DNA of 30,371 nt from a virus, in the IMG/VR virus record IMGVR_UViG_3300030085_002540, positions 1 to 30,371 of that record; one strand, 5' to 3'. A program made the position numbers and the translations under genes. Of the stretch, positions 8,741 through 19,508 are shown one piece after another (the stretch's first letter is position 1; each line of letters opens with the position of its first letter). The notes beneath the pieces are model-generated. The model had not been told where the DNA came from. It ran no database searches and was given only the letters and a program-made list of their open reading frames with translations.

Positions 8741-8769
8741 ATGATATCAGAGATTGAGAGGATTGTCAA
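8741..8769 (-). promoter_or_regulatory. Sigma-70-type promoter of the DUF3310-gp45-gp44 operon
   Basis: On the minus strand TTGACA (8764-8769) is followed after exactly 17 bases by TATCAT (8741-8746), five of six matching the -10 consensus. The -35 lies inside the last codons of the CobS-like gene. The predicted start is near 8734, leaving a leader of about 16 bases before the ATG at 8718. It should be read by the unmodified host RNA polymerase early in infection. Confidence 0.75.
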
Positions 8770-9829
8770 CGGAAACATCAACGTCAGCGTCAATCTTATC
8801 ATACAATTCGATGAATGATTGCTTGGTCTCATCATCGAAACGGTTGAGGCACACCTTGATTGCCTTCACACGGTCAGAGAAGATGCTGTAAGCACGGATG
8901 ATGTGGACGAGGCGACGAGTGGAGATCACTTCATCGACACCACCATCCTTGAAAGTCTTACGGATGATGTCTGCCCATGCAACCAGATTCTTGATGTAAT
9001 CATCGTCACAGCACTGCAACTCAGCACAGTAGTTGTTGAGCATCTTGGTCTCAAGAGAGGGAGCAGGATACTCTTGCTCAAAGGTGACAGGGAAACGCTC
9101 AAGGAATGCTTCGTTGAGCACGTTGGTGCCAACAAAACGACCGTCATCGCTACCCTTACCCTTGGTGTTAGCAGTGGCAAAGATGTTGAAACCAGCAGCA
9201 GGAGACACCTGACGACCGATCTTCTTCAGGAAGACACCCTTACCTTCAAGGATGGACTGCAGACAGAGGATCTTGTTAGATGCAAGGTCGATCTCGTCAA
9301 GCAGCAGGACAGCACCACGCTCAAGTGCTTCGATCACAGGACCGTTGTGCCACACAGTCTCACCATTGACGAGACGGAAACCACCGATGAGGTCATCCTC
9401 GTCAGTCTCTACAGTGATGTTGACACGGATCAACTCACGTCCGAGTTGGGCACATGCTTGCTCGACTCCGAGAGTCTTACCGTTTCCAGAAAGTCCAGTA
9501 ATAAAAGTTGGGTAGAAAATCTTGGACTTAATAATCTTCTTAAGATCTGTAGCGTTGCCAAAGGGTACATAATTGGCGTCCTTAGAAGGGATGAGTGATT
9601 CAGTTGCCTTCACGACAGTCTCAAGTTGCTGACGGACTTCCTGCACAGAGAGATTCCACTTGCCGATGCCAGACTTGTGGTCCTTGAGGCGCTTCTTGAC
9701 AGTGGCAAAGGAGCAAGAGAAGTGCTCAGCAGCACCAAGCAATTCCGTGGTGCCGACTTCCTCGCCGTGCTTAACTGTAAGGTAGTTGATGATGTCGTCG
9801 GTGGTCACGGGGTGTGGTGCGAATGCCAT
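8747..9829 (-). CDS. cobS: CobS/MoxR-like AAA+ ATPase
   Basis: 360 aa from the ATG at 9829. The open frame extends to 9916 through the upstream promoter palindrome, which cannot be coding. Residues 1-55 look like a small helical, HTH-like domain (DDIINYL, then FATVKKRLKDHKSG). The AAA+ core has Walker A GLSGNGKT at 112-119, Walker B VLLLDEID at 174-181, sensor 1 in FNIFATANTKGKG and the arginine-rich RRLVHIIRA. Cyanophage homologues are named CobS after the cobaltochelatase ATPase subunit, but the sequence is equally that of a MoxR-type ATPase, which works with a VWA partner. That partner is the gene at 10391-12517, controlled by the same upstream element. Confidence 0.88.
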   Translation of the reverse strand: MAFAPHPVTTDDIINYLTVKHGEEVGTTELLGAAEHFSCSFATVKKRLKDHKSGIGKWNLSVQEVRQQLETVVKATESLIPSKDANYVPFGNATDLKKIIKSKIFYPTFITGLSGNGKTLGVEQACAQLGRELIRVNITVETDEDDLIGGFRLVNGETVWHNGPVIEALERGAVLLLDEIDLASNKILCLQSILEGKGVFLKKIGRQVSPAAGFNIFATANTKGKGSDDGRFVGTNVLNEAFLERFPVTFEQEYPAPSLETKMLNNYCAELQCCDDDYIKNLVAWADIIRKTFKDGGVDEVISTRRLVHIIRAYSIFSDRVKAIKVCLNRFDDETKQSFIELYDKIDADVDVSVDNPLNL

Positions 9830-9843
9830 GTGTGTTTCTTTGT

Positions 9844-9867
9844 TGTGTATGCATATATTATACACAC
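9844..9867 (-). promoter_or_regulatory. Palindromic promoter/operator element upstream of the CobS-like gene (copy 1)
   Basis: This 24-base element is identical to 12526-12549. It has perfect 7-base inverted arms (TGTGTAT and ATACACA) around a 9-base AT-rich centre. On the minus strand it contains TATAAT at 9857-9862, 27 bases before the ATG. No -35 hexamer lies 17 bases upstream, so an activator or phage-modified polymerase may be required, or the palindrome may bind a repressor. Confidence 0.65.
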
Positions 9868-10394
9868 GCATGAGGGGAATAGAAGTCCACCCATGACGGT
9901 TTTCTATCTGGCACACGCAGGTAGTTGGTCGCTACCCATGGTTTGCTTGCCACATAGCGTTGGTATGCAGTGATGGTGTCTATATCTTCGTCATATTTCC
10001 ATTCGTCAGGCATAGCACGAGCGAAGGGAGTGTGATCGTCGGGACAACCATATTGATACGTCAGTGCAGCGAGCACCAGTGATGGTTGACATGAGTGTTT
10101 CTTTCCATATCTATATGTATACTCTTCGCATAGAGAAATACCATGCTGCATTAACCACTGAATGTTATGCTTAGACTCTGCTACCCACTTAGTGCATGGA
10201 TGATTACGAAATGCACCTTTCTCTGTACGATAAGGAGTCCCATCCTTTTTAAGGACAGGACCGTGATTGAGATACCATTTACTGAATACAATAGAGAGCA
10301 TTTGACAGCACTCTAGTGGCATTTTTACGATGTGTTTGTCTGGCAGCATAGTCGCTGCCAGGACAGGATCATCATCTACTGCAAAGATATTCAT
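9858..10394 (-). CDS. Conserved phage hypothetical protein (DKHVVKM-type)
   Basis: 178 aa. It starts MNIFAVDDDPVLAATMLPDK, then HIVKMPLECCQMLS, and ends with RKPSWVDFYSP. This type, with a conserved N-terminal D.DP..AA..L.DKH..KM segment and a C-terminal basic/aromatic block, recurs in marine T4-like phages. Database names vary and I do not trust a specific function. It also has HPCTKWV (66-72) and several conserved His/Cys, which would suit a metal or nucleic-acid enzyme. The start overlaps the stop of the VWA gene as ATGA, so it is the second cistron of that transcript. Its stop codon lies inside the promoter palindrome of the CobS-like gene. Confidence 0.7.
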   Translation of the reverse strand: MNIFAVDDDPVLAATMLPDKHIVKMPLECCQMLSIVFSKWYLNHGPVLKKDGTPYRTEKGAFRNHPCTKWVAESKHNIQWLMQHGISLCEEYTYRYGKKHSCQPSLVLAALTYQYGCPDDHTPFARAMPDEWKYDEDIDTITAYQRYVASKPWVATNYLRVPDRKPSWVDFYSPHACV

Positions 10395-12517
10395 GCAATT
10401 TGTGTGATAAAGGATGAAAGAATACGCTTGTTGTTTGCTTTCGCTTTGAGGGTCTTCTTGAAGGCACGAGTGATCTGTGCCTTGGTTGCATCTTCCTCTA
10501 CATCAAACTCTACGTCATCATGCATCTTGCTGCTTTGAATTACAAACAATTCTTGATAACCCATCATCGGTGCAGAGGCAGACTTGTGCTTCTTAAAGTT
10601 AGCATGGACACTCTGCTTCTCCTTGATTGTCAGGGTATTGAAATTGTTGATGATGTAATTGATATCACGAGGAGTGCCGATACGGAAACCAGTGAAGTTG
10701 CACTGTGGGAAGCGACCCTTCAGGTAGCGAAGGATAGTTTCAGTCAGGTAGTTACCCCACTTAGGATAGTTGTAGGTACGACCAGTCTTACGGCAACGAA
10801 TTGACTCACTACCACGCATTGCAGAGCGATGAATCTCATCATCATAAGAAGACTTGACCCAGATACCAGACCAGTTGCTCTCACCATCAGACAGGACACT
10901 GATGTGACACTTCTCAACGCCATGCTTGGCAGTGAATGCAGGGATCAGTGTCTGTAGGCACAGAAGTGCTTCATTCAGAGGAGTGCCACCAAGGTGGAGG
11001 TGGGGAGGGAGTGCATCAGGCACAGGACGCTCGAAGAATGGACGCTTGTTTCCATAGCGTTGCTCATACATCTGAGTAACACGGAAGAGATCGCGAGCAT
11101 AACGGTCAAACAGTTGGTTATTGAGGTCACTGTTGAGGAATTCTACGAGGTGGAAGTATTCACCGATGTAGAAAGTATTTTCCTTGCCAACCTTCTCTTC
11201 GTAGTTACGAATATCACCGTATGATCCATCATTTACGAAGGCATATACGCTGAATGGGATGCCTGACTTACGGCAGAAGAAGCACAGCGACAGCAGTTGC
11301 TTGAAGGTGTCATGGATTGCTTCTGCCATGGACCCAGACCAGTCAAGGAGGAAGATCAGACCGTGATTCTTGCCATCAGGACGGATAGTAACCTTCTTGA
11401 AGAGGTCTTCATTATAAAGATACTGGTGAAGTTTGGCAGTGTCAAGTACACCTGTCTTAGAGATGGACTCGCGAGCGTATGCTGCTGCAGATTTCTTCAA
11501 CTCAAACTCTTTTTGGAGATATGACACCTCACGGGTGCATTCTTTCTTGAAAGCAGCGTAGTTTTGGTCAGCAACAGTGAAGTCAACGGGTTGATCAGGA
11601 TTCATGTGGTTGCGCCACTCATCCCAATACTTCTGGGACTTCACATTGACAGTCCTAGGGTCAATAATGATGTGTTTCAGGTCAACATCAGCGACTTCAA
11701 TGTAACGAGACTCGTGATGATCATACTCAGATGCAATGTCTTGCATTGCTTCCTGAAGGGACTGATCAGTGACTGCCTCTACGCTGTCACGGTTGTAGGA
11801 AGGGGTGTCAAGGTCAGCATCTTGCTGAGTTTCCTTGTCATCTCCCTCTTGCTGCTCATCACCATCATCTTCTTCACCCCCATTAGAAGGTCGCTCATCA
11901 GGTGCTTCTTGCTCGTCGCTACCACCACCAGCATTGTTGTCTACTTCGGGCAAATTATCGATTTTTTGCTGCTCTTTCTGTGCTTTCTCAAACTCTTGGA
12001 TAGCAACAGCAGCATCGATAGCATCTTGGAAAGTCTCTGCTTCACCCACTGCATCACGAAGAGGAATCTCCTCATCAGTGAAGGGGAAGAAGTGATTTGC
12101 ACCTAGTTTATAGTAAAGATTGATGCGGTCAATCAGTTTGAGACTGTCTGCATTGATGTCCTTGACTGAGAAGAAATCATCTTCATGGAGTTGCTTGTAT
12201 CCACCGTAGAAATCCTTGGAAATACCAGCAAATTTACGCTTCATCAACTTCTCAATGCGAGCATCCTCAGTCACGTTGACGTAGGACTTTGGACAAGGAA
12301 GGGAGTCCAGACTGTCGTCATTAGGAGTGAAGAGAGCATGACCCACTTCATGTGCAACCAGAAGGTTGAAGACAATTTCTTTAGCATTCCAGATAGGGAG
12401 AGTCAAAACGCGCTTCTGCACATCAAAGGAAGCGGTGGTAACTGCCCTGTGCTCAACAACAAGGTTTTCAGATGCGAGGAGTTTGGCGAGAGTGCCTTTG
12501 ACTTCTTGTACGGTCAT
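10391..12517 (-). CDS. HExxH metallopeptidase-VWA fusion, CobT-like partner of the CobS-like ATPase
   Basis: 708 aa from the ATG at 12517; the open frame to 12547 runs back through the promoter palindrome. Residues 1-140 hold a gluzincin-like site: HEVGH at 56-60 and the downstream acidic TEDARIE at about 83-89, so a zinc protease fold is likely. Residues about 190-240 are strongly acidic (DEQEAPDERP, EEDDGDEQQEGDD), as in CobT. The C-terminal VWA domain starts near 385 with the MIDAS motif DWSGS at 392-396; a later Gly-Gly-Thr (LHLGGTPLNEA) and SDGESNW match MIDAS motifs 2 and 3. CobT-type VWA proteins pair with CobS/MoxR ATPases. Here the pair may remodel or process a protein complex rather than insert cobalt, since no other cobalamin gene is visible. 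Confidence 0.85.
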   Translation of the reverse strand: MTVQEVKGTLAKLLASENLVVEHRAVTTASFDVQKRVLTLPIWNAKEIVFNLLVAHEVGHALFTPNDDSLDSLPCPKSYVNVTEDARIEKLMKRKFAGISKDFYGGYKQLHEDDFFSVKDINADSLKLIDRINLYYKLGANHFFPFTDEEIPLRDAVGEAETFQDAIDAAVAIQEFEKAQKEQQKIDNLPEVDNNAGGGSDEQEAPDERPSNGGEEDDGDEQQEGDDKETQQDADLDTPSYNRDSVEAVTDQSLQEAMQDIASEYDHHESRYIEVADVDLKHIIIDPRTVNVKSQKYWDEWRNHMNPDQPVDFTVADQNYAAFKKECTREVSYLQKEFELKKSAAAYARESISKTGVLDTAKLHQYLYNEDLFKKVTIRPDGKNHGLIFLLDWSGSMAEAIHDTFKQLLSLCFFCRKSGIPFSVYAFVNDGSYGDIRNYEEKVGKENTFYIGEYFHLVEFLNSDLNNQLFDRYARDLFRVTQMYEQRYGNKRPFFERPVPDALPPHLHLGGTPLNEALLCLQTLIPAFTAKHGVEKCHISVLSDGESNWSGIWVKSSYDDEIHRSAMRGSESIRCRKTGRTYNYPKWGNYLTETILRYLKGRFPQCNFTGFRIGTPRDINYIINNFNTLTIKEKQSVHANFKKHKSASAPMMGYQELFVIQSSKMHDDVEFDVEEDATKAQITRAFKKTLKAKANNKRILSSFITQIA

Positions 12518-12525
12518 GCGTTTCG

Positions 12526-12549
12526 TGTGTATGCATATATTATACACAC
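12526..12549 (-). promoter_or_regulatory. Palindromic promoter/operator element upstream of the VWA/peptidase gene (copy 2)
   Basis: Identical to the element at 9844-9867, with 7-base arms TGTGTAT/ATACACA. The minus strand contains TATAAT at 12539-12544, 21 bases before the ATG at 12517. There is no -35 at 17 bases. A short GC hairpin (ACCCC/GGGGT, 12557-12571) lies just upstream in the gp46-VWA gap and has no T-tract. Confidence 0.65.
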
Positions 12550-12582
12550 CCAGATGACCCCCGATAGGGGTAGGGTGCCACT

Positions 12583-14298
12583 TTATTGACTGTCCAGTGC
12601 CATGGACGAGAAGTCACCCACCTTATCAAACTTGACCACAGTATCAAACTTGTCCAGAAGGATGTCCCCCTTGTGACTGATGACAAATAGGTTGGTGCGC
12701 TCGTCCATACCCCTCAAAATCTTCATCAATTCGTCTGTAGCAGCAGTATCAAGGGAAGAATCGAATACCTCGTCAAGAATGAGGAGGTTGGTCGATGCAG
12801 AGTTTTTCATCTTCGCAATATCACGCCAGCAAAACAGCAAAGATAGGTCAATTTTCTGCTTTTCACCCTCCGAAAACGATGCATAGGAGAATATATCACG
12901 GAAGCGAGACTTGATGACCTCGTTGAATTCTTCATCCAATGTGAAGTTGACAAAGAAGTCCATGGACTGCAGATATTTATTGATCAAAGTGTTAAAAATA
13001 GGCACAAATTTGCTGATTACCTTACTTTTAATGCCACTGTCACGGAGCAGTGAGGACACAACTTTTAGGTTGTCAAACTCCTTGCTGACACCTGCACAAC
13101 GCTCCATATTTTGAGCGTATTCTGCCTCATAATCCTCCAATTTTTGCCTCTCTGAATCAATATCTGGGGTCTCTTTGTTGACTTCAACCATGATATTTTC
13201 ATTCTCTCTTAGCAGTCGAGCGACCTGCTTGTCAATACTCAAATTATCGCTCTGCAATTCAATAATTGACTGCCCATACCCCTTCAGATCACGCAATTTA
13301 TCATACAGTTTACTGACCTGATCATCGATCTTCTGGTAACCCTCAGTGTATTTTACACGACGTGACTCAGCGTCCACCAGTTGACGCTGTTTGTGGTCTT
13401 CTTCAAGGTTTTGTGAGCATGTTGGGCACTTATCATGCTTAGTATAGAATTTATGATCCTTCTCTGCTTTGTTTTTATTCTGCTCAATCTTAGATCGCAT
13501 GTCACGGAGACTCTCATACTTCTCCTGCACATCTGCAGAGTTAGTTACACTCTCTGCAAGCACACTCATAGAGTGATCATTCTCTTTCTTGCGTGTTTGC
13601 AGATTAACAATGCTATCTTCGTTGGTAGTAAACTTTGTTTGCAGTTTCTGGATCATTCCTTCCTGCAATTCTGTCAGTTTATGGATGGATGCACGCTGGT
13701 GATTCAGTTTTGTCTCACAGATCTCCATCTCATGCTTACACTCAGTGAATGTATCCTTATTATCCTTGACTCGATCCTTCAGGATCGTATTCATTTTGGA
13801 GAAGATTTTGATGTCAAGGAGGTCTTCAACAACTTCTCTTCTGTGCGTAGCAGAAAGCTGCATGAAAGGGACAAAAGTTGAAGAACCAAGAATAACCACT
13901 TGAGTGAAAGACTTGTAGTTAAATTTGAGTATGCTCTGCTCAAGGTATTTCTGATAGTCTTTCTGTGCAGCGTCTTGATCGAGGAGTTGTCCGTTACGGA
14001 AGATCTTAAAAACGCCTGGTTTGATACCTCTGATGACATGATAACTTACTTTACCAATAGAAAACTCAATCTCAACAACACATTCTTTCTCATTGACGCT
14101 GTTGATTAGTTGAGACTTACTAACTTTACGGAATGGTTTATTAAATAGCACAAAGCACAGGGCATCTAGCATAGTAGATTTCCCTGCACCGTTACTTCCG
14201 ATAACAAGATGTGATTTAGATTCGTTGAGAGATAACTCAGTGAAAGTATTACCTGTGCTCAGGAAGTTTTTCCAACGAATCGTTTCAAAAATGATCAT
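12583..14298 (-). CDS. 46: Recombination endonuclease subunit gp46 (Rad50/SbcC-like)
   Basis: 571 aa (T4 560). SMC-type ATPase: Walker A GSNGAGKS at 34-41, a long coiled coil from about 180 to 420 with a central zinc-hook CPTC at 291-294, the ABC signature FSEGEKQKIDLS at about 475-486, Walker B LLILDE at 505-510 and the final switch His in VISHKGD. With gp47 it resects DNA ends for recombination-dependent replication and host DNA degradation. The start overlaps the upstream small gene as ATGA. It is followed by a 65-base gap with a promoter-like palindrome, so it is probably the last gene of the gp55-gp47-gp46 unit. Confidence 0.97.
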   Translation of the reverse strand: MIIFETIRWKNFLSTGNTFTELSLNESKSHLVIGSNGAGKSTMLDALCFVLFNKPFRKVSKSQLINSVNEKECVVEIEFSIGKVSYHVIRGIKPGVFKIFRNGQLLDQDAAQKDYQKYLEQSILKFNYKSFTQVVILGSSTFVPFMQLSATHRREVVEDLLDIKIFSKMNTILKDRVKDNKDTFTECKHEMEICETKLNHQRASIHKLTELQEGMIQKLQTKFTTNEDSIVNLQTRKKENDHSMSVLAESVTNSADVQEKYESLRDMRSKIEQNKNKAEKDHKFYTKHDKCPTCSQNLEEDHKQRQLVDAESRRVKYTEGYQKIDDQVSKLYDKLRDLKGYGQSIIELQSDNLSIDKQVARLLRENENIMVEVNKETPDIDSERQKLEDYEAEYAQNMERCAGVSKEFDNLKVVSSLLRDSGIKSKVISKFVPIFNTLINKYLQSMDFFVNFTLDEEFNEVIKSRFRDIFSYASFSEGEKQKIDLSLLFCWRDIAKMKNSASTNLLILDEVFDSSLDTAATDELMKILRGMDERTNLFVISHKGDILLDKFDTVVKFDKVGDFSSMALDSQ

Positions 14299-19500: not shown

Positions 19501-19508
19501 TATTTATA
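19501..19508 (-). promoter_or_regulatory. Late promoter TATAAATA before the gp3-like gene
   Basis: A perfect T4-type late promoter octamer on the minus strand, 24 bases before the ATG at 19476. It overlaps the stop codon region of the small membrane gene at 19504. Recognition would be by gp55-programmed polymerase. Confidence 0.75.

Follow-up and report, generated by a model that had tools for sequence, protein, structure and literature searches.

Matching promoters with a shared upstream dyad predicted before the cobS and VWA/peptidase genes of a T4-like cyanophage

The window, by which we mean the whole 30,371-nucleotide stretch of viral DNA analysed here (IMG/VR record IMGVR_UViG_3300030085_002540), is a fragment of a T4-like cyanomyovirus, a virus that infects marine cyanobacteria. 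It carries sliding clamp, clamp loader and gp46/gp47-like recombination genes, together with genes for a gp55-type late sigma factor, UvsW, UvsY, protease, portal and tail sheath. The features from which this analysis starts are three genes and two copies of a short element:

8747..9829, minus strand: CobS-like AAA+ ATPase gene (360 aa; PF07728 AAA_5; PHROG 249)
9858..10394, minus strand: gene between the pair (PF03013 Pyr_excise / PHROG 624), with the cobS dyad described below inside its 3' end
10391..12517, minus strand: VWA/peptidase gene (708 aa; PHROG 459)
9844..9867, minus strand: 24-base element, copy 1, in the predicted cobS promoter
12526..12549, minus strand: 24-base element, copy 2, in the predicted VWA promoter, spanning about -17 to +7 relative to the predicted start

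A sequence-only reading of this DNA had claimed that the two sites are identical over 24 bases, that they have perfect 7-base arms and that they occur only before these two genes, and our searches bear out all three claims. The 24-mer TGTGTATGCATATATTATACACAC is found exactly at both coordinates (its minus-strand reading is GTGTGTATAATATATGCATACACA), and both copies have perfect arms, TGTGTAT/ATACACA, separated by a 9-base spacer. It is the longest repeat in the window, where the next longest direct repeat is of 15 bases and any other match to the 23-mer differs at seven positions or more. In contigs of 91, 66, 60 and 57 kb from relatives, the clade pattern TATAATNNNTNNATACACA occurs only at cobS and VWA, with which a position-weight scan agrees. 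Elsewhere in IMG/VR the exact 23-mer is present in two other contigs, both of close relatives and both times upstream of cobS. What is notable about the element is its 24-base identity and its placement before both genes, rather than the palindrome alone.

The window, L083 and L090 each carry a pair of identical promoter cores, and the core sequence differs from one of these three genomes to another. Three identical pairs compare with 0.34 expected by permutation (P 0.002, kinship ignored), and over all lineages the cobS and VWA cores of the same genome are more alike than permuted pairs (P 0.0002, likewise with kinship ignored). What has kept the two cores alike? They look homogenised or co-selected, and the possible causes are gene conversion, a factor that both share and a promoter flavour of the whole genome.

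The promoter core

The conserved parts of the two elements, with the transcription starts that we infer from them, are as follows:

9857..9862, minus strand: cobS -10 box TATAAT, 27 nt before the ATG at 9829
9850, minus strand: predicted cobS transcription start; A in 90% of 60 dereplicated cobS promoters; 21-nt leader
12539..12544, minus strand: VWA/peptidase -10 box TATAAT, 21 nt before the ATG at 12517
12532, minus strand: predicted VWA transcription start, the A of C-A-T; A in 98% of 40 dereplicated VWA promoters; 15-nt leader

The distance of 21-27 bases between TATAAT and the start codons that had been claimed for the two sites is thus correct, and the cobS box overlaps the TAA with which the PHROG 624 gene ends (9860-9858). 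A TATAAT-like box lies 17-37 nt before the start codon in nearly all of the cobS and VWA upstream regions of about 100 contigs, from which 60 cobS and 40 VWA dereplicated promoters were aligned with the -10 as anchor. The invariant bases of the -10 carry 1.8-2.0 bits, and a second conserved block is found 6-8 nt past the hexamer (C 72%, A 90-98%, T 78-90%). Because this C-A-T sits where transcription should start, the right arm ATACACA would be the start of the RNA. The earlier view that both sites look like promoters is supported, and the proposed co-regulation of cobS and VWA is plausible. The -10/initiator part differs among lineages; the cobS promoter of S-SZBM1, for instance, carries TATAATTACAAGGTAATC instead.

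The two sites had also been set apart from both TTGACA-type and late promoters, and this distinction stands. The best TTGACA-like -35 at 15-19 nt matches 2/6 bases at either window site, and neither site is among the matches of a scan with the host-type promoter consensus. The T4-type late promoter, (N)ATAAATA of gp55, is similar in that it has no -35 and only a -10-like element, but the window sites carry TATAAT and not TATAAATA, which occurs in the window at 19501, 22906 and 25474, two of these sites immediately preceding the head protease and portal genes. The cyanophage late promoter has been given as NATAAATA (PMC2984593).

Elsewhere in the window there is a strong host-type promoter match, TTGACA-17-TATCAT (8769-8741, minus strand; 11/12, with TG before the -10). 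It lies where cobS ends, ahead of the DUF3310/sliding-clamp genes, and its class differs from that of the cobS and VWA promoters.

The upstream dyad and a wider promoter class

Further upstream, a motif, AACTGTCCAC, begins 38-40 nt before the -10 in most cobS sites; at two mismatches or fewer it is present in 35 of the 60 sites, as against about 2.5 expected from shuffles, and its position is independent of the intervening hairpin. Extending the alignment brought out a second, mirror half-site beside AACTGTCCAC, which completes a dyad, TG[AC]CA[CG]TT-N4-AA[CG]TG[TG]C[CA], that starts 51 nt before the -10 at both window sites. The half-sites match as reverse complements with r = 0.81 at a centre of -41.5 from the hexamer (about -53.5 from the predicted start), compared with -0.33 to 0.31 at other centres. 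In the window the dyads are:

9894..9913, minus strand: cobS promoter dyad TGCCAGATAGAAAACCGTCA, with two mismatches, inside the 3' end of the PHROG 624 gene
12576..12595, minus strand: VWA promoter dyad GGACAGTCAATAAAGTGGCA, a predicted operator, with one mismatch to KGMCASTTNNNNAASTGKCM, overlapping the 3' end of the gp46-like gene

A dyad at 49-53 nt accompanies 2 of the 119 -10-like hexamers of the window, namely the two sites, and all the others have more than three mismatches. The window's cobS dyad is imperfect, and its two mismatches and coding location could count against it; since it lies in coding sequence, part of the conservation of the dyad could reflect the protein. In many IMG/VR loci (L009, L015 and L036 among them) a hairpin resembling an intrinsic terminator, followed by a T-run, stands between dyad and -10, a placement by which termination and re-initiation adjoin upstream of cobS and VWA; in the window this hairpin is degenerate or missing.

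We scanned three complete genomes with a composite model of dyad plus -10, for which cobS and VWA sites alone had served as training set; it gave 9 matches in Syn9, 21 in S-PM2 and 10 in S-SZBM1 (1, 0 and 0 in the respective reversed-sequence controls), including genes outside that set. An ATG that opens an ORF follows 18-30 nt after the -10 in 29 of the 40 matches, a proportion that is about 10% for the remaining strong -10 hexamers. Among the members are cobS and VWA in all three phages, a helicase gene (Syn9 gp75, S-PM2 p232, S-SZBM1_33) and many small genes of unknown function. The earlier picture of cobS and VWA as the sole carriers of a shared regulation was therefore incomplete, for the upstream dyad, which the sequence-only reading had not seen, marks a wider class. 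The model has no match in the main structural regions of S-PM2 (24.1-88.3 kb) and Syn9 (53-127.5 kb), which argues that the class is not late; its timing may be early.

The same dyad and -10 stand before a gene starting MAKNTHLEH at G006:18704 (L134) and G010:18966 (L137), minus strand, where the ATG falls at the expected transcription start, so that the mRNA may be leaderless. In Syn9 gp61, gp73, gp150 and gp183 (L108, L145) and in S-PM2 p035, p056, p119 and p120 (L147, L148), the predicted -10 falls on the annotated start of the CDS or within it, and these genes have an in-frame ATG 21-27 nt further on, which suggests that several published start codons have been placed too far upstream.

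Is the dyad a phage or a host site? At one mismatch or fewer it occurs 4, 9 and 3 times in Syn9, S-PM2 and S-SZBM1 (control 0), whereas five host-type genomes (about 11 Mb) hold one such site and their control nine. Similarly, exact dyads were found in 4 of 151 host-family genomes and in 3 of the reversed controls, which is no enrichment, nor is the dyad enriched at one mismatch in WH7803 or RCC307. Because the dyad is not enriched in host genomes, the site appears to be a phage affair.

A candidate mechanism, its alternatives and known systems

From the conserved layout just described, we consider it probable that each 24-mer forms the start-point half of a promoter, and that the two promoters match and belong to one phage promoter class. 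In such a promoter the core would consist of the -10 TATAAT, a discriminator ATATGC and an initiator whose A, at the start of ATACACA, is +1, with no -35. A dimeric and probably phage-encoded protein would bind the dyad about 53.5 bp before the predicted start and bring host RNA polymerase (sigma-70 type) to the -10; in this way cobS and VWA/peptidase would be switched on along with other non-structural genes carrying the same promoter. As there is no -35 box (best 2/6), host RNA polymerase alone would be expected to bind poorly, for which a dimer on the dyad would be a natural helper; that the dyad serves a repressor instead of an activator is less likely. We take the factor to be phage-made because no host regulon for the dyad was found. 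For a middle class, an early phage protein would be enough. For an early one, the factor would need to arrive inside the virion, or else it would be a host protein whose own sites are few or degenerate. HTH_3, tried as the family of the regulator, had no match in the phages.

An early class would need a factor that is present at once, and this is one reason to consider that the dyad is the site of a host regulator hijacked by the phage rather than that of a phage protein; another is the published prediction that host NtcA and Pho boxes serve cyanobacterial phages (PMC3037559). We regard this as unlikely, however, given the lack of enrichment in the 151 host-family genomes and in WH7803 and RCC307, and given that no NtcA box GTAN8TAC occurs within -100 to +30 of either window site, for which reason an NtcA-regulated promoter was rejected. 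We find it quite unlikely that these are ordinary host-type promoters and that the upstream motif is a feature of the preceding gene's 3' end or terminator. Host-type promoters have been reported for cyanophages (PMC5780444, PMC2984593), and the motif often stands just before the hairpin and T-run that end the upstream gene, but the 38-40 nt to the -10 are kept even where there is no hairpin or a very different one, the motif is part of a symmetric dyad, the combination of dyad and -10 before gene starts is far above control, and the -35 matches at both window sites are at the low level already given.

A phage promoter class of the kind that we favour has a parallel in the middle promoters of T4 (MotA box plus TATAAT), which also combine a host -10 without -35 and an upstream site for a dedicated factor, and which also serve non-structural genes. 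They differ in that the MotA box, TGCTT, lies at about -30, whereas the element here is a 20-bp dyad centred at about -53.5. Reports on marine T4-like cyanophages state that motA and asiA are missing (PMC2984593, PMC5780444), as are T4-like middle promoters (PMC5780444), and the control of their early and middle genes has been described as unclear (PMC2984593). A putative middle promoter of Syn9 and P-SSM4 (cited in PMC2984593) resembles the present class in being predicted as non-late and in lying upstream of homologues of T4 middle genes. There is no TGCTT in the 45 nt before either window -10, and a search of 7 records with the MotA profile PF09114 gave no match, the control search being equally silent. 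Tentatively, we extend the proposal to T4-like cyanophages without MotA/AsiA in general: these might run non-structural genes from a class of their own, in which a host -10 lacking a -35 is paired with a dyad at about -53.5, the site of a phage-encoded dimeric activator absent from the host regulon; cobS and VWA/peptidase would be the most widely conserved members of this class.

In work on Syn9 and P-TIM40, Doron et al. (2016, ISME J 10:1437) are said to have described a new element that serves the early genes, the middle genes being driven by promoters of host-like type. That early element could well be the dyad found here; as Doron et al. may already describe this dyad, its novelty is uncertain. 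Our literature search, the reach of which did not extend to Doron et al., found no paper giving the sequence of the element. A defined 20-bp dyad at a fixed spacing offers both a bait for the regulator and a motif by which the class can be predicted in any cyanophage genome; should the element of Doron et al. be the dyad, what remains of value is that it is a dyad, that host regulons lack it and that cobS and VWA are assigned to it.

The palindrome

Perfect 7-base inverted repeats are common in the window, where there are dozens, so that a palindrome of this size is unremarkable by itself. It had been proposed as a possible operator; on such a reading, a regulator dimer on TGTGTAT/ATACACA would block or open the -10 of both genes. 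The arms are perfect in both copies (those of copy 2 extend to 8 bases) and are kept in most members of the window's clade, in three genomes of which the paired cores match as described above, and arms of at least 6 bases occur at 16 of 109 dereplicated sites, compared with 7.9 expected (P 0.003, kinship ignored). Against this, the arms are on average no longer than under a column-shuffle null (P 0.10-0.15), arm changes within the clade (L082, L083, L087 and L092) are never compensated, and across lineages the left-arm (TGTG) columns carry 0.0-0.6 bits; outside the clade it is the right arm, as initiator, that is conserved, together with the -10. We therefore judge an operator at the palindrome to be very unlikely. 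The palindrome is probably incidental, a by-product of a TGTG beside the -10 and a CACA in the initiator, and the upstream dyad is the better regulatory candidate, which looks like the docking place of a virus-specific regulator.

An RNA hairpin was rejected, because the left arm, upstream of the predicted start, would not be transcribed; the leaders are unstructured. The cobS promoters of L003 (S-SZBM1), L008, L075 and Syn9 have TATAATTAC-N3-GTAATC in the -10/start region, a different small inverted repeat in the same place as the palindrome of the window.
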